From Hyphomicrobiales bacterium (GTDB taxonomy: Bacteria > Pseudomonadota > Alphaproteobacteria > Rhizobiales > RI-29): a stretch of 64,000 nt of DNA. Within the stretch, counting starts at the first letter, position 1. Every line of letters begins with the position of its first letter. Positions 35,025 through 54,899 of the stretch are shown here, piece after piece. The stretch is taken from positions 1-64,000 of the forward strand of contig WGLQ01000009.1 in NCBI GenBank assembly GCA_016125495.1, in the 5' to 3' direction. A program made the position numbers and the translations under genes. The notes below the pieces were generated by a model. That model was not told the DNA's origin and ran no database searches. It saw only the letters and a list, made by a program, of their open reading frames with translations.

Positions 35025-35735
35025 TCAGAACGTCTCCGTCCAGGGCCGGAGCGCGATCTCGCTGGTCCAGGCCGTGCGGGGCTGGCGGATGAGCGCCAGA
35101 TAGGTCTCGGCGATGGCATCGGGATCGAGCAGGCTGTCGGGGCGATCTCCCGGCGCCTGTCTCGTCGCGCTCGCGATCACACCGTCGATGTTGATCCAGG
35201 CAACGTGGATGCCCTTGGGTTGCAGCTCGCGGGCCATCGACTGGGCGAGCCCGCGCTCGGCGAATTTGCCCATCGCAAAGGGAGCGGACTGCGCGAAGCC
35301 CTTTTCGCCGGCCGAGGCGCCGGTGAAGAGAATGGTGCCGCGAACACCGCCGACGGGCTCTTGCCCGAGCATCCGCCGCGCCGCCAGCCGGCCCATCAGG
35401 AACGCGCCGAAGGCCGTGACCTCGAGCGCCTGTCGCACCGCTTCGGGCTCGAGTTCCGCGATCGACCCGCGCACCCGCATCGAGGGATTGTAGACGGCGA
35501 CATCGAGCCGGCCGTCGATCGCCGAAAAGAGCGCATCCATATCATCCGGCCGCGCTGCATCGCACGTCTCGCGACGGGCCCCGGTCTCGGCCGCGAGCCC
35601 GGCGAGCTTGTCCGTATCGCGCGCCGCGAGCGTCACCCCGTAGCCGGCCCGCGCCAGCAGCCGGGCGAGCGAGGCCGACAATCCGGAACCAGCCCCCACG
35701 ATGAGCGCACCGCCAGCCCTGCCAACTTCGACCAT
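35025..35735 (-). CDS. Short-chain dehydrogenase/reductase family protein, atypical active site
   Basis: 236 residues, Rossmann fold with the glycine motif GAGSGLSASLARLLARAGY and an NAD(P)-binding start LIVGAG. The catalytic Ser lies in ILFTGASAG, but the YxxxK motif reads FAMGK, with Phe in place of Tyr. The following segment RGLAQSMARELQPKGIHVAW is typical of an SDR subgroup that often lacks this tyrosine. Substrate unknown. Start MVEVGRAGGALIV at 35735. Same strand as the XRE regulator (51 bp away), divergent from the M24 gene. Confidence 0.8.
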   Translation of the reverse strand: MVEVGRAGGALIVGAGSGLSASLARLLARAGYGVTLAARDTDKLAGLAAETGARRETCDAARPDDMDALFSAIDGRLDVAVYNPSMRVRGSIAELEPEAVRQALEVTAFGAFLMGRLAARRMLGQEPVGGVRGTILFTGASAGEKGFAQSAPFAMGKFAERGLAQSMARELQPKGIHVAWINIDGVIASATRQAPGDRPDSLLDPDAIAETYLALIRQPRTAWTSEIALRPWTETF

Positions 35736-35925
35736 CACCGGACACTCCCTGCCGGACGAGCAGCCTTTCGCTGCACGCGTTGGTCGGGCTATACCACAAC
35801 CCACCAGAAAGGCATGAGCCCGATGCACCGGAGGTCGGCCTGCCCTGCAAGACGTCCGCTTGCCATCGACCGATGGACGAGGGCAACCTCGCCCCCGCTA
35901 TCCCCCTGCCACCAAGGACCGCCAG

Positions 35926-37949: not shown

Positions 37950-38621
37950 ATGAGTTCACGAGAGATGGCCCTGGATGTGACTCTGCGCGGCACCCGGAAC
38001 TACGTTCAGGGCTCGCAGATCCTCGGGCGCACCGCCGCCTGGCTGGCCAGCCGGCCGGATGGCCACCACCTGACGCTGACCACCGCCAAGTTCACCCGCA
38101 TCACCGATCGCCTCGTCGCCGCGCGGCTGCTGGACGTAGGCGCCGAACCTGGCGCACCGGAGCCGGACCAGATCGGCGAGGCGCGTTTTGCCGCCGAGCC
38201 TCAGGAGCCGGCGCGCATCGTCCAATTCCTCGAGGGCACCACCACCGCCCCCCGCATCGCCGACGAGCCCTCACGCCTGTTGCGTTTCGAGGAGACCGCC
38301 CGCCTTTCCGGATCGGCCGACTACCGCATCACGAACGCGATGCAATCCTATCTCGCGGCAACCATCGAATTCGTGAAATGGCTGCACGCTCGCGCCGCCG
38401 CCGACGTCACGGACATCTGGTTCACCTCGCTCGCATCCGCGCGGCTCGCCGTCGCACCGGACTATGCCGCAACCGCGACGATGACGGTAACCCTGGAATT
38501 CGAGCGCCCCCATGCCGGCCGGCTGCTGACGCTCTGCCGCGTCGAATCCTCGGACCGCGCGCTCTCTCCGTTCAACATCGGTTTTTCCTGCAAGGTGGCC
38601 GAGGGAGCCTCGCGCTCATGA
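37950..38621 (+). CDS. Unknown protein, first gene of the acylation locus
   Basis: 223 residues, soluble, no signal peptide, no membrane helix, no recognised family. The sequence alternates beta-rich stretches (LTLTTAKFTRITDRLVAARL; ATMTVTLEFER) with a helical middle part (SYLAATIEFVKWLHA). The C-terminus reads SPFNIGFSCKV. Its stop overlaps the start of the KAS III gene by 4 nt (ATGA), so the two are translationally coupled and it probably works in making the acyl chain. A dehydratase, thioesterase or binding role would all be guesses. Start ATG at 37950. Confidence 0.7.
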   Translation: MSSREMALDVTLRGTRNYVQGSQILGRTAAWLASRPDGHHLTLTTAKFTRITDRLVAARLLDVGAEPGAPEPDQIGEARFAAEPQEPARIVQFLEGTTTAPRIADEPSRLLRFEETARLSGSADYRITNAMQSYLAATIEFVKWLHARAAADVTDIWFTSLASARLAVAPDYAATATMTVTLEFERPHAGRLLTLCRVESSDRALSPFNIGFSCKVAEGASRS

Positions 38622-39613
38622 AGATCCGCGCCATTGCTTCAGCCGTGCCGGAGCACCGCTACAGCGCCGAAGAGATCGGCGAATGGGTGGGCGAGGGCGC
38701 GGCCTTCATCCGCGACAAGGTGGGGGTCGCCGAGCGCGCTTTCCTCGGCCCCGACGAGACCGGTGTCGGCCTCGCGCGCGCCGCCGTCGAGCGGCTGCTC
38801 GCGGCAACCGGCGTCGGGCTCGGCGAGGTCGACCTCCTCGTCTTCGTCACCCAGACGCCCGACCACGGCATCCCGCAGAATTCTTCGCTGCTGCTCGCCG
38901 CCCTCGACGCGCCCAAGTCCATCGCTTCGTTCGACATTTCCCTCGGCTGCTCGGGCTATCCCTATGCCCTCGTCACGGCCAAGGGGTTCCTTGCCGCGCA
39001 AGGGGCCGAGCGAGCGATCGTCGTCACGTGCGATCCCTATTCGCGCATCATGAACCGGACCGACAAATCGACGGTCGCGGTCTTCGGTGACGCGGCGACC
39101 GCGACGCTGCTCGATTCGAGCGGCACGGGCGAGATCGGCCGCGGCGACTTCGGCACGGACGGTACCGAGGCGAACAATCTGATCGTGCGACGCGGGCGCG
39201 GCGCGAGCCCGTTCGCCTCGATCCACCACCCCTTCCCGACCTTGGACGCCGACGCGGCGGCGCAATACTACCTGACGATGAACGGACGCGGAGTCTTCAA
39301 CTTCGTCATGAGCGAGGTGCCGGGAAGCCTCGCGCGCGCCCTCGAACTCAGCCGACTTACGATGGACGAGATCGACCTCTTCGCCATCCATCAGGGCAGC
39401 CTATACATGCTCGAGCAGCTCGCCCGCTCAGTGGGCATCCCGCGCGAGAAGCTGCTGGTGAACCTCGGGCGCTACGGCAACACGGTCTCGTCGTCGATTC
39501 CTCTTTTGCTCGAGGACGCCATGGCCATGCCCGGCGGCCTCGCTGGAAAGCGCGTGTTGATCTCGGGGTTCGGCGTCGGACTTTCCTGGGGGAGCTTGGT
39601 CCTCTCGCATTGA
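38618..39613 (+). CDS. KAS III-type beta-ketoacyl-ACP synthase (second FabH-like enzyme)
   Basis: 331 residues, thiolase fold. The full Cys-His-Asn triad is visible: C111 in SLGCSGYPYAL, H258 in FAIHQGSLYM, N288 in RYGNTVSSS. It differs from the housekeeping FabH at 53919-54899, for example LGCSGYPYAL against [15 protein letters not shown] enzymes condense an acyl-CoA with malonyl-ACP, or act as acyltransferases to a carrier. The gene directly precedes its own acyl carrier protein (73 bp), so it most likely builds or loads the acyl group used by the MBOAT system downstream. Start ATG at 38618. Confidence 0.88.
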   Translation: MKIRAIASAVPEHRYSAEEIGEWVGEGAAFIRDKVGVAERAFLGPDETGVGLARAAVERLLAATGVGLGEVDLLVFVTQTPDHGIPQNSSLLLAALDAPKSIASFDISLGCSGYPYALVTAKGFLAAQGAERAIVVTCDPYSRIMNRTDKSTVAVFGDAATATLLDSSGTGEIGRGDFGTDGTEANNLIVRRGRGASPFASIHHPFPTLDADAAAQYYLTMNGRGVFNFVMSEVPGSLARALELSRLTMDEIDLFAIHQGSLYMLEQLARSVGIPREKLLVNLGRYGNTVSSSIPLLLEDAMAMPGGLAGKRVLISGFGVGLSWGSLVLSH

Positions 39614-39686
39614 CTCGCCCCAACCGGTATGAAACCAAGGCCGAGCGGTTGAACGCACAACCTCAGCCTACGAACGGGAGAGGCCA

Positions 39687-39932
39687 GTGACCAGAGACGA
39701 GGCCATCGGGCACATCCGTGCGGCACTCAAAGAGGTTCTGTCGAAGGACCTCGGGCAATTGTCGGAGGCAACGCACCTCCTTCAGGACAACGTCCTCGAC
39801 AGCCTCGATACGATGAATTTCCTCTTCAAGCTCGAAAAGCGCATCGGCAAGAAGCTCGATGTGATCGACGAGAGTTTCACGGACTTTCGGATCGGCGTCA
39901 TCGCCGATCTCATCCTGAGCGAGGCCGCCTGA
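39687..39932 (+). CDS. Dedicated acyl carrier protein
   Basis: 81 residues, four-helix carrier fold. The phosphopantetheine attachment serine is S39 in NVLDSLDTMNF. It resembles DltC-like and stand-alone carrier proteins more than the general FabF-associated ACP (it lacks the GADSLD motif). Start is GTG at 39687 with GGGAGAGG upstream. It lies between a KAS III gene and genes of an envelope acylation machine, so it probably carries the acyl group to the cytoplasmic face of the MBOAT. A 157-bp gap to the next gene shows nothing I can assign. Confidence 0.85.
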   Translation: MTRDEAIGHIRAALKEVLSKDLGQLSEATHLLQDNVLDSLDTMNFLFKLEKRIGKKLDVIDESFTDFRIGVIADLILSEAA

Positions 39933-40089
39933 CCATCGCGCTGCGAGCCGCGCGGGCGAATGGCGCGAGCATGCGGATCGGGTCGCCCGCAAGTTTCGCC
40001 CGCCCGGGCACGATCGCGCAACGGGAGGGCTGCGTGGTAGCCGCGGACGTCGTCGCAGTCCGGTCGCACGCCACAACCGGGACGCCAGC

Positions 40090-40371
40090 ATGAGCGTGAG
40101 ATCGATCGACAGGTTGTCCTCCCTCGCCAGCAAGGCTGCCGCGGGCGCGAGATTGGGAGCGGACAAATCGCTCCGCGCGGCGCGTGGCATCGCCGGTACG
40201 GCCGCGAGACAGACGCGCGATCGACTTGCCGCGACGTCGCGACCGACCTGGAACGTAACAGGGCGCGAACTCGGCTGGTCGTTCCTCACCGCCGCGGCCC
40301 TCTGGATGATCGTCTTCTTCTATCTCGCCAACAACCAGGGACTGCAGGTCTTCCGCTACGTCGGGTTCTGA
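40090..40371 (+). CDS. Single-pass membrane microprotein with C-terminal FRYVGF (DltX-like acyl shuttle candidate)
   Basis: 93 residues. An Arg/Lys-rich N-terminal half (residues 1-55) is followed by one transmembrane helix (about 62-81, ELGWSFLTAAALWMIVFFYL) and a short tail NNQGLQVFRYVGF. Positive-inside topology puts the tail in the periplasm. The last six residues F88-R-Y90-V-G-F93 fit the F-x-Y-x-x-F pattern of the C-terminal acyl-shuttle peptide reported for DltX and for some MBOATs, where the tyrosine carries the acyl group. The adjacent MBOAT has no such tail of its own, which fits a separate shuttle. Function is inferred. Confidence 0.75.
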   Translation: MSVRSIDRLSSLASKAAAGARLGADKSLRAARGIAGTAARQTRDRLAATSRPTWNVTGRELGWSFLTAAALWMIVFFYLANNQGLQVFRYVGF

Positions 40372-40480
40372 GGCCACGGGCGACGGGCCGGCCCACCGCT
40401 CGCGCCACGGCCTCGTTTGGGGCACTCGCGCGCGCACGCCCCGAAGCCGCCCGCCCCCACATGCCGCAGGCACTCGATCG

Positions 40481-43400
40481 ATGCGATTCATCTTCTATAC
40501 GGCGCTCTTTTTCGCTCTCCAGGGCGTTGGCCTCGTCGCCTTCCAGGATCAAATCCTCGGTGCCTTCGGGCGCAACTGGCCGGCCTCCTGGCAGTCAGGT
40601 GTGCAGCGTGATGCCCTGCTCGGCGCCCAGCGCATCGCCGAGGCCAATCGCGAAGGCAAGCCCAAGACGTTCATCGTCGGCCCGTCCAGCGCGCCGCCCT
40701 TCTTCGAGGCTGCCAAGACCCTGCCCCCTGAAATCAGCGAGCACGTCGTCTCGCTCTATTCGGGCTCGCAGGTGCTGCACGACGCGATCCGCCTCATGGA
40801 GGCGATGGAAGTGCCTGGCTCGACCGTGGTCGTCATCGTCACGCCCCACAAGTTCGCCAACATGTGGTACGATCGTTCGATGGTCGAAACCCATTACATC
40901 AATGGGATGGCCGGAAAATACATGCTCCCGAGCCCGACCTTCGACCGGCTCTGGGAGGAATTCCGGGCCGGCAACGATGTCAACTCGATGGTCTGGACGC
41001 AGAAGCACTGGCGGCTCTTCCAGCCCCTGATGCCCTACGCCTATTACCTCAACGACATGGTCGACCAGAACGTCAGGCGCCCGATCCGCCGGCTGAAGCA
41101 GTCCCTCAAACCCCGCCCGCCCAGAAAGCCCGCCGGCACCGCCTCGTTGCTCTTCGATACGGCCTGGGCCGCCGATGCGCCGGCCACCGCAATGCCCGCC
41201 TCGATCGCTCCGATCGCCTCACAGCACCCCACCTTCGGCGGCAATGCCAGCGCTGGAGAACGTGGTCCCACCGCCGCGACGCGCATGGCCCAGGCCACGG
41301 CCCGCAACGAACCGATGGCGAGCGAATACGGCGGCCACATCTCGGTGCGCAAGCTCAAGGAATTCCGCGACTGGCGCGATTTCTCCAAGACGCAGTTCGA
41401 GCAGTCGGTGCGCGAGAGCTTCGCCGTCCTCGAAATCCTCGTCGAGATCGCCAACGCACGTGGCCTCAGACTGGTGCTCGCCGAAGCCCCCTTCCCCGAC
41501 GTCGAGGAGGCCGAGCTGCTGCCGCTGATGCCGGAATACGGCCCGCTGTTCGAGGCGTTCGCCGCCCGCCATCCGCAGGTCCGCGTGGTGCGCTTCGATC
41601 CGGCGGTTCTCGAGAACGATCAGAAGTATTTTTCCGACTACGTCCACCTCAACAAGGATGGAAAAGAATTCTACAGGAGCTATCTCCGCTCTCCCTTTCG
41701 CAATCCGGAATGCCGCGACCAATTCGAAGTGATCCATCTCCCGCCGGCGGGCGCGGGCGCGCCGCCCGCGATCGACTGGAACGGTGCGGACATCGTCCAC
41801 GTCCACGAGGGTGATTTCATCCGCCGCGACCTCATCGGCAAGGGCGCCCGCGTCGCGTTCGCGGACCGGGCGGCGGTCGGGCGCGCGATTTCTCTATCCG
41901 GCCTCGGCGTCGAGGTTCGCCCCTTCGTCGACACCTTGCGCACAGACCCCGAGCCAGCCCCCCTCACCTGGGACGAAGCACGCAAGGCCTACGATCTCGA
42001 GATCGCCGGCGCCTCGCACATGTCGCTGTCGTTCAACACCGAGGCGAACGTCAATTTCTATCTCCGCGCTCAGTGGTGGACGACCGGCCCGACGGGAGAG
42101 ACATATTCGAACCGCCGCCAGTATTCCCATTTCGCCACGCCCTTCGGCTGGGCGTTCCAGAAGCCGGACCTCGCGAGCATTGCGGCGGCGACGTGCGTCA
42201 AGCACCCCTATATCGCGCCGGGTCACGCCTGGACACGCTCGCAGAATTGGTCCCTGCCCTTCGATGTCGACAGGATGGAACTCGCCGCCCGCGAGTTCCC
42301 GCGTGACTTCGAGGTGCGCCTCGTGCGCGAGGCCCGCCGGTACCTCAGCATGCCGGATCTCGGCGAGACCACCGGTGGCGACGCGCTTCTACTGGCGATG
42401 CCGGCCATCGACAGTGGCGCCGTGAAGGACAAGATCGCCAACTACGGCGTCGAACTGACGATTTCAGAAGTCGTGGCGGTCCGCTTTGCGGACGGCAGTC
42501 ACACGCCGCGCGAGCTGGCGCCTGGAAAGCGGCGGCGGATCGGCGTACAGGCCCCGCAGTCGCTCGCCCTTCGCCGCACCGACGGCAGCGAGCGCGTCCT
42601 CTTCCTCGACGGCATCGACCTCGTCGACATTGCCCTCGACGGCGAGAATAAAGAGGCCCGGCTGTCGGCCTATCTCTACCACGCCGACGAGCATGCGATC
42701 TCCGGCTACGACCTCACCCCGGCCCGTGTGAAGGTCGAGGGTGAACTCATGCATTTCGAGCGCACCTACCGAAATCTCGCCATCACGGATTTCGTTCCGG
42801 CAGGCGAGATCGGCATTCGAGCGGCTGAGTCGTCCGAGAGCGAAACGAGCCTCGCGTTCCGCGTCTGGCAACCGAACGCGAACCTGTCGACCTTCATCTT
42901 CGTCGAGCACGCCGATTACCAGGACACCGCCAGCGATCACCTCCTCATGTATGGCAACCCCGACCGCAAGGTGGTCGAGGGAGAAGGCGTTCTCGGCAAT
43001 CGCATCCCCTATACCAAGACCGTCTTCACCGGCGGCAGCCCGCTGACGTTCCGCACCGCCATGGTGCAGGACACGCCGATCGAATTGACCCAACCGACCA
43101 TAACGACCGATCCGATCTTTTCGGCCGACCTTCAAGCCTACCACGACAGTGGTCTGGTCGAAATCGCCGCGCATCAGGCGGGCACAACACCCTATGCGAA
43201 CGAGCATCTCGCGACGAACCGCTCGCTTGCCGTTCTGCGCGAGCGGTTCGGCAATCGCGTCTGGACCGATCACGGCGGCATCCCTTCGAACATTTCTTTC
43301 AACGGCTGGGATCGGCGACAGACACAGTACTTCGTCATCGATGCGTTCCGCGAGGCAGGCATCGACTATGCCTGGCCGGTGGGCGATCGGCTCCCCGTCT

Positions 43401-44032
43401 GTCGATCCGAGGCAACGAAAAAACCTCCGCAAGAGCTCTGCAGCATCAGTCAGCTCCCTCAGAACGAAGCTTCCTCCGTGCTCTACAGCGTACCGATGTT
43501 GATGGATGGCGAGCGCCTGGACATGCGCCCCAAGTTCTTCCGCAACATCGCCATGGTACTCCCCGACGCCACGATCCGCGATCCGCTGGTCGAGCCGCTG
43601 CTCTCGCGCTTGGTCGACGAGCGTGGTGCAACGCTCCTCCATTTTTATCCCGGGCGTCTCGCCATCGAATACGACATCGTCGATGGCAAGCGCGTGGCGC
43701 GCCTGCGGCCATACTGGAACGAGGGCCTTGCGCGGCTCGCGCGCTATCGCGACGCCGGGCTCGTGCATGTCGCCAAGGTCTCCGACTGGCTCGACTACGT
43801 GGATGGCATGCGCGCCGTGCGCATCCTCGAGAGCAGCGCCGAGGGCTTGACGGTCGACAACCCGGGCAAGCCGATCGCCGGTGCCTCGTTCGCGGTGATG
43901 AATATCGTCGGGGACGATCCGGGCGCCTGCGAGGTGCGGTATTTCGCCGCCGACATCGCGACCGGCAGGACCGTCATCGGTGCGGACAAGATCGCACGCA
44001 AGCTCGCCTGCGGAACCTCTCCGACCTTGTAG
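40481..44032 (+). CDS. Membrane-anchored SGNH (DltD-like) acyltransferase fused to a deacetylase-like domain
   Basis: 1183 residues. One N-terminal helix (residues 3-20) anchors it; the rest is periplasmic. Residues 60-400 form an SGNH/DltD-like domain: nucleophile region FIVGPSSAP (S69 or S70) and the D-x-x-H motif YFSDYVHLNKDG (D386, H389). Residues 420-780 are beta-rich and unassigned. Residues 800-1130 resemble a NodB-type deacetylase barrel in outline (FVEHADYQD near 809, EIAAHQAG near 896, WTDHGG, LHFYPG); this part is tentative. The SGNH half is the expected final transferase of a Dlt-like pathway. The gene sits between the shuttle microprotein and the MBOAT. Much longer than DltD (about 400 residues). 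Confidence 0.72.
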   Translation: MRFIFYTALFFALQGVGLVAFQDQILGAFGRNWPASWQSGVQRDALLGAQRIAEANREGKPKTFIVGPSSAPPFFEAAKTLPPEISEHVVSLYSGSQVLHDAIRLMEAMEVPGSTVVVIVTPHKFANMWYDRSMVETHYINGMAGKYMLPSPTFDRLWEEFRAGNDVNSMVWTQKHWRLFQPLMPYAYYLNDMVDQNVRRPIRRLKQSLKPRPPRKPAGTASLLFDTAWAADAPATAMPASIAPIASQHPTFGGNASAGERGPTAATRMAQATARNEPMASEYGGHISVRKLKEFRDWRDFSKTQFEQSVRESFAVLEILVEIANARGLRLVLAEAPFPDVEEAELLPLMPEYGPLFEAFAARHPQVRVVRFDPAVLENDQKYFSDYVHLNKDGKEFYRSYLRSPFRNPECRDQFEVIHLPPAGAGAPPAIDWNGADIVHVHEGDFIRRDLIGKGARVAFADRAAVGRAISLSGLGVEVRPFVDTLRTDPEPAPLTWDEARKAYDLEIAGASHMSLSFNTEANVNFYLRAQWWTTGPTGETYSNRRQYSHFATPFGWAFQKPDLASIAAATCVKHPYIAPGHAWTRSQNWSLPFDVDRMELAAREFPRDFEVRLVREARRYLSMPDLGETTGGDALLLAMPAIDSGAVKDKIANYGVELTISEVVAVRFADGSHTPRELAPGKRRRIGVQAPQSLALRRTDGSERVLFLDGIDLVDIALDGENKEARLSAYLYHADEHAISGYDLTPARVKVEGELMHFERTYRNLAITDFVPAGEIGIRAAESSESETSLAFRVWQPNANLSTFIFVEHADYQDTASDHLLMYGNPDRKVVEGEGVLGNRIPYTKTVFTGGSPLTFRTAMVQDTPIELTQPTITTDPIFSADLQAYHDSGLVEIAAHQAGTTPYANEHLATNRSLAVLRERFGNRVWTDHGGIPSNISFNGWDRRQTQYFVIDAFREAGIDYAWPVGDRLPVCRSEATKKPPQELCSISQLPQNEASSVLYSVPMLMDGERLDMRPKFFRNIAMVLPDATIRDPLVEPLLSRLVDERGATLLHFYPGRLAIEYDIVDGKRVARLRPYWNEGLARLARYRDAGLVHVAKVSDWLDYVDGMRAVRILESSAEGLTVDNPGKPIAGASFAVMNIVGDDPGACEVRYFAADIATGRTVIGADKIARKLACGTSPTL

Positions 44033-44074
44033 GAAGACGCGCGCGAACGCTGCGCCAGCGCGATTGGGGGATCG

Positions 44075-45292
44075 ATGTTCGACTTTCCGGGGGTGACGGA
44101 CCTCGCCCGCAGGATGACCGAGGACTTCGGCGTCGTCCCCTACATGGTCGCGCTCTTTGCCGTCCTCGCGGCGATCGAGCTGTTCCGCCGCGCACCGCTG
44201 GCGGTTGCTGCAAAGCAGCTCATCCTCATCGCCGCGTCAGCGGGCCTCATCGGCTACCTCGACTGGCGCTCGCTCCTCATCATGACCATCCTGGCGACGG
44301 CCACTTATATCGCCAGCCGGCTCGATCTCGAATTCCGCAAGTACATCATCACCGTCACCGCCATCGGCATCCTCGGCCTCATCCTCGTCAAGAACGTGCT
44401 CGCCTCCTGGCAGCCGCAGCCGATCGTTCTGATGGGCCTCTCCTACTACGTGTTCCGCCTCCTGTCGGTGGTCATCGAGATCGGGCGCAAGAACCCGGAC
44501 TACCTTCACCTCAAGGCGCTGCCGTTCTTCTCCTACGTCTATTTCTTCCCGATCTTCTTTGCCGGCCCCGTCCAGAAATATGCCGATTTCCGTCCCGTCG
44601 AGGTGCCGGACGGGCTCGCCATGCGCACCTACGGGCTGATGGCGTTGATCATCCTCATCAAGCTCTCGCTGGTCGACTACCTGCTGCTCCAGGCGGTGAT
44701 CGCGCCGATGCGCACCGACCTCGTGCCGGTCGTCCTGCAGTGGCCCGCGCCCGAGCGGATCGGTTTTTTCTTCACGCACGGCGTCGTCAGCTTCGCCTAC
44801 CACTACCTCGATTTCATGATCTACACCGAGATCGCCAAGGGCGTCGGCCGCCTGCTCGGCTATCACGTCGTCGACAACTTCAACTATCCCTACCTCGCCA
44901 CCAGCATCGCCGACTTCTGGCGCCGCTGGCACATGTCGCTGACCGGCTTCACGCGCGACTATGTCTTCATGCCGGTCATGGTACGCTCTCGCCGCGTTTG
45001 GCTCGCCATGATGCTGACCATGCTGGTCATCGGCCTCTGGCACACCAGCAACCTCAACTGGCTGGCCTGGGCGCTCCTGCACGGCGGCGCGCTGGTCGCC
45101 TACGACCACTTCCGCCGCTCGCGCGTCCACGGGGCGATGACGGCGAGCGCCTGGAGGCAACGGGTGACGCGGGTCCTCGGCTGGGCGACGGTCATCCTCT
45201 TCGTCGGCGGCGTCAACAACCTCATCACCTTCGCCCCGAAGTACGACGTTGCCTGGACCTTCCTTCGCCAGGCGTTGTTCGGCATCGAGTGA
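44075..45292 (+). CDS. Membrane-bound O-acyltransferase (MBOAT, DltB/AlgI type)
   Basis: 405 residues, about ten to eleven helices. MBOAT landmarks: FFPIFFAGPVQKYADF, the buried FWRRWHMSLTGFTRDY (H286), and GLWHTSNLNWLAWALLHGG with H323 and H336, the latter at the position of the catalytic DltB histidine. It should take the acyl group from the carrier protein in the cytoplasm and pass it across the membrane to the tyrosine of the microprotein. Its C-terminus (LRQALFGIE) lacks a fused F-x-Y-x-x-F tail. Start ATG at 44075, 42 bp after the SGNH gene; last gene of the locus. Confidence 0.92.
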   Translation: MFDFPGVTDLARRMTEDFGVVPYMVALFAVLAAIELFRRAPLAVAAKQLILIAASAGLIGYLDWRSLLIMTILATATYIASRLDLEFRKYIITVTAIGILGLILVKNVLASWQPQPIVLMGLSYYVFRLLSVVIEIGRKNPDYLHLKALPFFSYVYFFPIFFAGPVQKYADFRPVEVPDGLAMRTYGLMALIILIKLSLVDYLLLQAVIAPMRTDLVPVVLQWPAPERIGFFFTHGVVSFAYHYLDFMIYTEIAKGVGRLLGYHVVDNFNYPYLATSIADFWRRWHMSLTGFTRDYVFMPVMVRSRRVWLAMMLTMLVIGLWHTSNLNWLAWALLHGGALVAYDHFRRSRVHGAMTASAWRQRVTRVLGWATVILFVGGVNNLITFAPKYDVAWTFLRQALFGIE

Positions 45293-53918: not shown

Positions 53919-54899
53919 CTACCAGCGCGCGAGCACCGAGCCCCACGTGAAGCCGCCGCCCATCGCCTCCATCAGCACGAGATGGCCCTCCTTGAGGCGC
54001 CCGTCCTCGATCGCGGCATTGAGCGCCAGCGGAATGGAGGCGGCCGACGTGTTCGCGTGCTTGGAGAGCGTGACGACGACCTTTTCCTCGGGAATGCCGA
54101 GCTTCTTGGCGGTACCCTCGAGGATGCGTTTGTTCGCCTGATGCGGCACGAACCAGTCGATCTCGTCCGCTGCGAGCCCCGCATCGACGAGCGCCTCCTC
54201 GATGACGCTCGAAATCTTGTTGACCGCATGGCGGAACACCTCGCGCCCGTTCATGCGCAGGTGCCCGACCGTCTGCGTGCTCGAGGGGCCGCCGTCGACG
54301 TAGAGCTCCTCACGATAGCGCCCGTCCGCCCGCATCCGGCTGGCAATGATGCCACGCTCGTCGATTCGCCCGTGCTGGGTCTGCGCCTCGAGCACGATCG
54401 CCCCGGCGCCATCACCGAAGAGCACGCACGTCGTTCGGTCCTCCCAGTCGAGGATCCGCGAAAACGTCTCCGCTCCGATCACCAGGGCGCGCTTGTAGGG
54501 TCCGGTCCTGAGCAGCGCGTCGGTTGTCGCCACCCCGTAGATGAAGCCGGAACAGACCGCCTGGATGTCGAACGCCGCCCCGCCACGGTGCGCGCCCAGC
54601 ATCGCCTGCACCGCCGTTGCAGTCGCCGGAAAGGTCTGATCCGGCGTCGACGTCGCCACCACGATGAGATCGATCTCGGAAGGGTCGAGCCCCGAGCGCA
54701 CCAGCGCCTGACGCGCGGCGCCGACCGCCAGATCGCTCGTCAGCTCACCTTCGGCGGCAATATGGCGCTGCTCGATGCCGGTGCGCTCGCGGATCCACTC
54801 GTCGCTCGTATCGAGACGCTCCGAGAGCTCTGCATTCGTCACCACCCTTGCAGGAAGGTATGCGCCACAACCCCGGATCACCGAGCGCACGACTGCCAT
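53919..54899 (-). CDS. fabH: Beta-ketoacyl-ACP synthase III (housekeeping)
   Basis: Starts fatty acid synthesis by condensing acetyl-CoA with malonyl-ACP, 326 residues. Triad: Cys in AVCSGFIYG, His in [10 protein letters not shown], Asn in KHANTSAAS. The [20 protein letters not shown] and [13 protein letters not shown]-like C-terminus ([16 protein letters not shown]) are standard. Start ATG at 54899, 26 bp after plsX, typical plsX-fabH pair. This is the canonical FabH; the divergent KAS III at 38.6 kb is a second, specialised copy. Confidence 0.97.

Follow-up and report, generated by a model that had tools for sequence, protein, structure and literature searches.

A candidate carrier-protein-fed, DltX-type acyl relay encoded beside a FabH-like ketosynthase in an alphaproteobacterium

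In the Dlt pathway, an acyl group passes from the carrier protein DltC via the membrane-bound O-acyltransferase (MBOAT) DltB to a tyrosine within the C-terminal FXYXXF of the microprotein DltX, and from there to DltD (PMC12148441, available portion). In PatA the hexapeptide is fused to the MBOAT, the donor is acetyl-CoA, and acyl-tyrosine within FXYXXF has been demonstrated (PMC12148441, available portion). The same 2025 paper states, in the portion available, that neither a DltX-like microprotein nor a carrier protein is present in non-Dlt MBOAT pathways (PMC12148441). Here we describe a six-gene locus at positions 37950-45292 of a 64,000-nucleotide stretch of a Hyphomicrobiales genome (contig WGLQ01000009.1; the whole stretch is hereafter ‘the window’), where such a microprotein and carrier are predicted beside an MBOAT, an SGNH-motif protein and a β-ketoacyl-acyl carrier protein synthase III (KASIII). 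We consider that the cluster probably encodes a carrier-protein-fed, DltX-type acyl relay. The six open reading frames (ORFs), all on the plus strand, lie where the sequence-only reading of this DNA had first placed them.

The last gene of the cluster (44075..45292, plus strand) encodes a predicted MBOAT of DltB size (P0006, 405 aa) that scores above the Pfam MBOAT cut-off. Its sole NCBIfam match is DltB (TIGR04091), at 126 bits against a cut-off of 375, and its significant PDB matches by sequence are to DltB only, with eleven YnaI chains next (E 0.046-0.074). P0006 thus appears related to the DltB family while falling outside it by the curated threshold. Three histidines had been listed for the MBOAT, and in a four-way alignment of P0006, the MBOAT of a second locus (L175, below) and two DltBs, H286 and H323 are invariant but H336 is not, being Gln in Listeria DltB. 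The protein ends ...QALFGIE, at DltB length and with no fused FxYxxF. To place this C-terminus among relatives we drew on a scan of genome contigs for MBOATs, in which 80 of 582 loci were taken, not exhaustively (all counts of 80 loci refer to this sample); the top-scoring MBOAT carries a fused C-terminal FxYxxF in 79 of the 80, and in the remaining locus it is broken by a stop. Two of these loci hold a second MBOAT, with the motif in L045 and without it in L079. Among 29 further MBOATs from genome searches, including three paralogs from the window’s own genome, 27 end with the fused motif; of the remaining pair, one is truncated where its contig ends (L014) and one is that of L169/L175. Two apparent parallels were discarded on inspection: the microprotein-like ORF of L112, a candidate second split MBOAT, is the in-frame continuation of an MBOAT past a stop, and the seemingly motif-less L014 is a gene inside which the contig ends. 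The three further MBOATs of the same genome (G000, contigs C3, C4 and C5) all end FIYFQF.

The motif missing from the MBOAT is found on a separate protein. The microprotein gene (40090..40371, plus strand) encodes 93 aa (P0004) with one predicted transmembrane segment at 61-79 and Y90 inside the terminal FRYVGF, bearing out the single-pass topology and ending first read from the sequence; net charge is +8 before the segment and +1 after it. P0004 has no Pfam or NCBIfam match, and two DltX proteins end FIYNEF at the same C-terminal place. Only one of 654 window ORFs of at least 25 aa, namely P0004, ends in FxYxxF. Among 18,286 control ORFs from other loci there are seven such endings, counted with MBOAT ORFs left out of the matches, with nine loci holding window or L175 sequence excluded and with some loci overlapping. 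Three of the seven belong to ORFs of at most 120 aa with a single transmembrane segment near the end; these are two annotated DltX proteins and the L112 continuation. The cluster is therefore predicted to carry a separate membrane microprotein with a C-terminal FxYxxF, as Dlt does.

The split between MBOAT and shuttle recurs once, in locus L175 (L175:5886-12458; G1120:C12), whose genome belongs to the same phylum but another class, has a G+C fraction of 0.35 and is the sole genome of its order in our sample. Like the window, L175 combines an MBOAT without a fused motif, a one-pass microprotein ending FRYAGF (P0008, 44 aa, the counterpart of P0004), an SGNH-motif protein (361 aa) and an acyl carrier protein (ACP) that matches PP-binding. 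Unlike the window, it has an AMP-binding ligase (122 of 476 bits for DltA, below cut-off) and a divergent gene order, and a phmmer search with domains of the six window proteins gave no KASIII among its listed genes. Over 237 residues the two MBOATs share 30% identity. Between the L175 genes also sits an ORF of 511 aa that matches FMN_red. Since L175 repeats the shuttle split with an AMP-ligase, it speaks for a DltX-type relay that is fed by a carrier and whose loading enzyme can be exchanged. What the predicted proteins of the two loci display is a gene set with its motifs, the split of MBOAT from shuttle, and one recurrence of that split beside a different loading enzyme.

The KASIII gene (P0002; 38618..39613, plus strand) encodes a FabH-like protein in which both KASIII Pfam domains score above their cut-offs and NCBIfam fabH models match below theirs. 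The triad C111-H258-N288 proposed earlier was recovered both from residue positions and from alignment with the window’s other FabH-like gene (53931-54878, minus strand), and with this triad and both domains P0002 is, as far as sequence can tell, a FabH-type KASIII. The next gene (P0003; 39687..39932, plus strand, GTG start) encodes the ACP, whose predicted 4'-phosphopantetheine site, S39, was likewise upheld within DNVLDSL. P0003 reaches 19.9 bits against Pfam PP-binding, just short of the 20.8 cut-off, and 16.6 of 68 bits for the DltC model, hence below the DltC cut-off; in its own genome it finds only itself at E<=1. A putative dedicated carrier is thus present in the cluster, as in Dlt. 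The first gene, ORF1 (P0001, 223 aa; 37950..38621, plus strand), is an orphan without a predicted transmembrane segment. It is as unassignable as first described, with no Pfam or NCBIfam family, no PDB match, no paralog in the genome and a single, non-significant plasmid match (E 0.3). Its AlphaFold2 (AF2) model is unusable (pLDDT, the model’s confidence score, 38); a long helix and four strands are a hint at most, and the protein is possibly hotdog-like.

The fifth gene (40481..44032, plus strand) encodes P0005, a 1183-aa candidate membrane-anchored SGNH acyltransferase, assigned on motifs, with a predicted transmembrane segment at 3-21. Of its earlier label as SGNH/DltD-like, the motifs stand (G67-P-S69, TPHKF and D386-x-x-H389) and the family does not: there is no Pfam, NCBIfam or other family match, DltD families included, and against three DltD sequences hhalign gave a weak match over 48 residues (probability 3.6, P 0.012). 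P0005 greatly exceeds DltD in size and has an additional C-terminal part. A model computed after removal of the first 23 residues is unusable (pLDDT 33); Foldseek with it returned nothing below E 0.3, the SGNH O-acetyltransferase domain 5ufy standing at E 1.3, and VIA-align no Z >=5. Residues 798-1127 (window 42872-43861) resemble LamG-annotated, plasmid-encoded proteins of Methanosarcina (24% identity with one, tblastn E 6e-4), with HAD, EI..H and W.DHG stretches in common; we would guess that these might reflect a metal-dependent hydrolase-like fold.

The relay that had been proposed from the sequence is well supported by these comparisons: an MBOAT without a shuttle, a separate FxYxxF microprotein, an ACP and an SGNH-motif protein stand together, and the set recurs in L175. 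As we picture it, the KASIII would make, or at least load, a short acyl group onto the dedicated ACP; the MBOAT would receive the acyl group from the phosphopantetheine of the ACP and transfer it through the inner membrane onto Tyr90 in the FRYVGF tail; and the tail would move to the SGNH protein, whose serine would deliver the acyl group to a hydroxyl of a glycan, either in the envelope or extracellular. We infer the direction of transfer and the KASIII as donor maker, as well as the identity of the acyl group and of its acceptor and any role for ORF1. More tentatively, and with less confidence than we place in the relay itself, we propose that KASIII and ACP form a chain-building module that feeds it, such that a β-ketoacyl or 3-hydroxyacyl group could be exported as acyl-tyrosine and esterified to an envelope glycan. 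In the simplest case acetyl-CoA and malonyl-ACP would give acetoacetyl-ACP, which a general reductase might then convert to 3-hydroxybutyryl-ACP. The intact KASIII triad favours condensation. The contexts of P0002 relatives offer a further hint: some (31-39% identity) sit in sugar-modification cassettes, and several adjoin a short-chain dehydrogenase/reductase (SDR) gene, some also an ACP, in surface-sugar loci, such as vioA-KASIII-ACP with an SDR in Burkholderia glumae, ACP-ligase-KASIII-SDR in Parabacteroides, and KASIII, an ACP-sized ORF and an SDR in L151; one lies near a flagellin gene. Such contexts would suit short acyl groups of the 3-oxo or 3-hydroxy type. O-(3-hydroxybutanoyl) groups occur on Rhizobium exopolysaccharide (PMC3233446 and PMC5748678, available portions), a precedent by which such an ester would not be strange chemistry.

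Carrier linkage can also be followed beyond the two split loci. In L079, from Magnetococcales (L079:352-7868), an FkbH gene, two ACP-like ORFs and methyltransferase-like and epimerase-like genes accompany a DltB-like MBOAT of 395 aa without FxYxxF; a 49-aa ORF ending LVYKIF lies near that MBOAT (L079:7719-7868), and a shuttle role for it would be a guess. L176 (L176:4601-8687; G1135:C1) encodes an 888-aa fusion of AMP-binding, weak PP-binding (E 0.017) and GDSL domains beside an MBOAT with a fused FIYFDF; here carrier feeding may be combined with a fused shuttle. Jointly, L175, L079 and L176 point to putative carrier-fed MBOAT relays with varied loading enzymes, of which the window KASIII would be one. 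A profile built from 11 carrier proteins (including those of L175, L079, the window and L151, the last without a Pfam match) found an ACP-like ORF in four of the 80 MBOAT loci (L038, L079, L083 and L115) as well as in L175 and the window, and none in L163, L164, L165, L176 or L177. The L083 ACP is above the Pfam cut-off. In L038, L083 and L115, from Bacteroidota, the ACP-like ORF lies just ahead of a fused-FxYxxF MBOAT (L038:7684-7971, L083:7365-7616 and L115:7353-7592, the last weak), a poor fit with fused MBOATs using acyl-CoA only. On a 114-row core tree of MBOATs, the 11 rows labelled ACP-linked need two label changes, against a mean of 10.7 in shuffles, none of 500 shuffles being as low; the ACP-linked MBOATs cluster on this tree, which is suggestive only. 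P0006 joined L169 (support 85) in a core tree made with a quick search, and its placement had support 22 when the short row L007 was removed and the second MBOAT of L079 added. P0006, L169 and the L079 MBOAT have very long branches in the core tree, and the end branch of P0006 measures 5.71 in a whole-length tree. The position of P0006 thus varies between trees, in which it sits on a very long branch. The trees held no named alginate or cellulose acetylation MBOAT. One MBOAT paralog from the same genome groups with alphaproteobacterial MBOATs, which fits an alphaproteobacterial host.

A number of observations weigh against the relay or its KASIII feed. The whole-length tree joins P0006, with support 99, to three fused-motif MBOATs, one of them its own paralog. 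The clustering of ACP-linked MBOATs was scored with ACP labels set after the contexts had been seen, with unequal flanks and with ACP context checked for part of the rows, and the fused L079 MBOAT was counted as ‘other’ despite two ACPs in its locus; the L175 and L079 ACPs had helped to build the carrier profile, and the L115 match is weak (E 3e-4). The SGNH-motif proteins of the window and L175 show no BLAST-detectable relation. No reductase lies within the cluster, and other KASIII relatives occur in unlike contexts, for example beside polyhydroxybutyrate (PHB)/transport genes in Pseudomonas veronii. Gaps of 74, 157, 109 and 42 bases part five of the genes, such that a single transcript, which there may be, is an assumption, and a promoter scan was uninformative (0 found, 0.8 expected). 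The exchange of DltA for a KASIII would rest on one locus: the exact gene set is a singleton, with no second KASIII-ACP-MBOAT locus in the sampled genomes. An MBOAT was seen at none of 34 distinct KASIII places (44 loci, 10 being the same places with longer stretches; 19 seen with at most ~1.5 kb per side, some cut by contig ends), a KASIII in none of the 80 MBOAT loci, and a P0005 match in none of 384 other genomes of the class (385 searched).

Recurrence of the six genes in other genomes, which had been put forward as the check on the sequence-only reading, was thus not found in the samples searched. The MBOAT search among 61 relatives gave matches at E<=1e-3 in 22 of the 60 others (best 111.8 bits); among 397 genomes of the order it gave one in the 396 others at E<=1e-32, and among 350 genomes of the class of G702 three at E<=1e-30, strict limits that would hide weaker split MBOATs (the E value of L175 itself is 3.9e-31). 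KASIII matched at E<=1e-30 in 326 of 398 genomes of the phylum, the best other place at 38% identity and 189 bits. Viral scans found nothing, and plasmid searches no second cluster among the matches listed. A DNA pattern for FRY[AV]GF plus stop, run on 289 genomes of the class, matched in the window and in two further genomes, whose matches we ascribe to chance: the match in G204 lies in a repeat inside an overlapping ORF and that in G267 has no stop codon. The reversed pattern matched eight times in seven of the 289 genomes, so the pattern count alone shows nothing. The gene set is rare, and its uniqueness does not follow from sampled genomes.

Even if the relay is accepted, the KASIII could serve it as a loading enzyme, moving an acyl group from CoA to ACP without condensation, with acetyl or another CoA-derived acyl as the exported group. 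Transacylation from CoA to ACP is a side activity of FabH-type enzymes, some KASIII relatives are acyltransferases, and this route would need no reductase, of which the cluster has none; but acyltransferase relatives often alter the triad, and the Cys-His-Asn condensing triad of P0002 is intact, and we regard this version as somewhat unlikely. We hold it unlikely, too, that two systems merely adjoin, with ORF1, KASIII and ACP making an acyl group for something else, such as an N-acylated sugar or a small metabolite, and with MBOAT, microprotein and SGNH protein performing acetyl-CoA-fed O-acetylation. The 157-base gap between the ACP and microprotein genes would suit such a division, as would the KASIII relatives in sugar-modification cassettes without an MBOAT, the use of acetyl-CoA by the fused MBOAT PatA (PMC12148441, available portion) and the joining of P0006 to fused-motif MBOATs in the whole-length tree. 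However, DltX-like microproteins are absent from non-Dlt MBOAT pathways and Dlt is carrier-fed, according to the available portion of PMC12148441, and L175 also has an ACP. Moreover, no sugar aminotransferase or N-acyltransferase is among the 11 flanking ORFs scanned, which include one SDR, on the other strand.

It seems to us highly improbable that the locus performs genuine D-alanylation with a ligase borrowed from another part of the genome and that the KASIII is incidental to it. DltB is indeed the sole NCBIfam match of the MBOAT, the DltA model has 24 sub-threshold matches elsewhere in the genome, and a few Gram-negatives, Dickeya and Pectobacterium, are reported to carry dlt genes (PMC5541007, available portion). 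Yet all 24 fall short of the DltA cut-off, the best with 107 of 560 bits, and all lie on contigs other than that of the window, C9, and MBOAT and ACP stay far from the DltB and DltC thresholds, at 126 of 375 and 16.6 of 68 bits. The earlier proposal that a ketosynthase replaces DltA fares in two ways: it fits the anatomy of the cluster, which has no AMP-binding gene among its six and whose genome has no DltA above cut-off, the best match lying on another contig, but the samples searched gave no further genome with the six genes. We keep to the carrier-fed relay as the probable function and to KASIII-built chains as its tentative donor.

All six genes are co-directional, the ORF1 stop overlaps the KASIII start, and the G+C fraction of the cluster (0.65) is close to that of the window (0.66). 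An M24 peptidase and a CN_hydrolase gene lie upstream, and RlmJ downstream. Of the 11 flanking ORFs scanned with Pfam, four had no match, at least one of them probably in a wrong frame; six of ten have matches to glutamine synthetase, glutamine amidotransferase, a helix-turn-helix (HTH)-cupin regulator, SDR, M24 peptidase and RlmJ. The SDR gene (35025-35828) is on the strand opposite to the cluster, and any part for it in the relay would be purely speculative. The absence of alginate and cellulose genes nearby, noted at the outset, holds among these 11 ORFs.

If carrier-fed relays of this type exist as proposed, they would form a modular family in which the loading enzyme (an AMP-ligase in L175, an FkbH-type enzyme in L079 and the KASIII in the window) sets the exported group, and, once this is confirmed, the loading enzyme could allow a guess at the acyl type that bacterial surface glycans carry. 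A relay of the window type would be one possible route to O-(3-hydroxybutanoyl) groups, though a link to Rhizobium exopolysaccharide is purely hypothetical here. Contrary to the 2025 statement on non-Dlt pathways (PMC12148441, available portion), the window and L175, of the same phylum, have both microprotein and carrier, and the window adds a different loading enzyme. We found no publication on a KASIII-fed MBOAT relay in the open-licence literature, judged by titles and abstract starts. With dlt genes reported for Dickeya and Pectobacterium (PMC5541007, available portion), a Gram-negative Dlt-like system is not new by itself.

Among described systems, the KASIII-ACP-SDR surface-sugar cassettes, such as the vioA cluster of Burkholderia glumae, share with the window a KASIII and a dedicated ACP, but no MBOAT was found adjoining them. 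PatA/PatB-type O-acetylation shares the MBOAT and SGNH-type protein with an FxYxxF acyl shuttle, but with the shuttle fused to the MBOAT and, for PatA, acetyl-CoA as donor (PMC12148441, available portion), whereas in the window the shuttle is a separate protein beside an ACP. The cluster resembles Dlt (DltXABCD) in its DltB-sized MBOAT, separate one-pass FxYxxF microprotein, dedicated carrier and predicted membrane-anchored SGNH-motif protein. It differs from Dlt in having a KASIII and the orphan ORF1 in place of DltA, in an SGNH-motif protein enlarged to 1183 aa by its C-terminal part, in an MBOAT and ACP below the Dlt cut-offs with other parts lacking any Dlt match, and in its alphaproteobacterial host, in which, to our knowledge, teichoic acids are not expected. 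By its predicted parts the locus stands outside Dlt membership, since its genome yielded no DltA above cut-off and P0006 scores well short of the DltB threshold, yet it appears built to work like Dlt.

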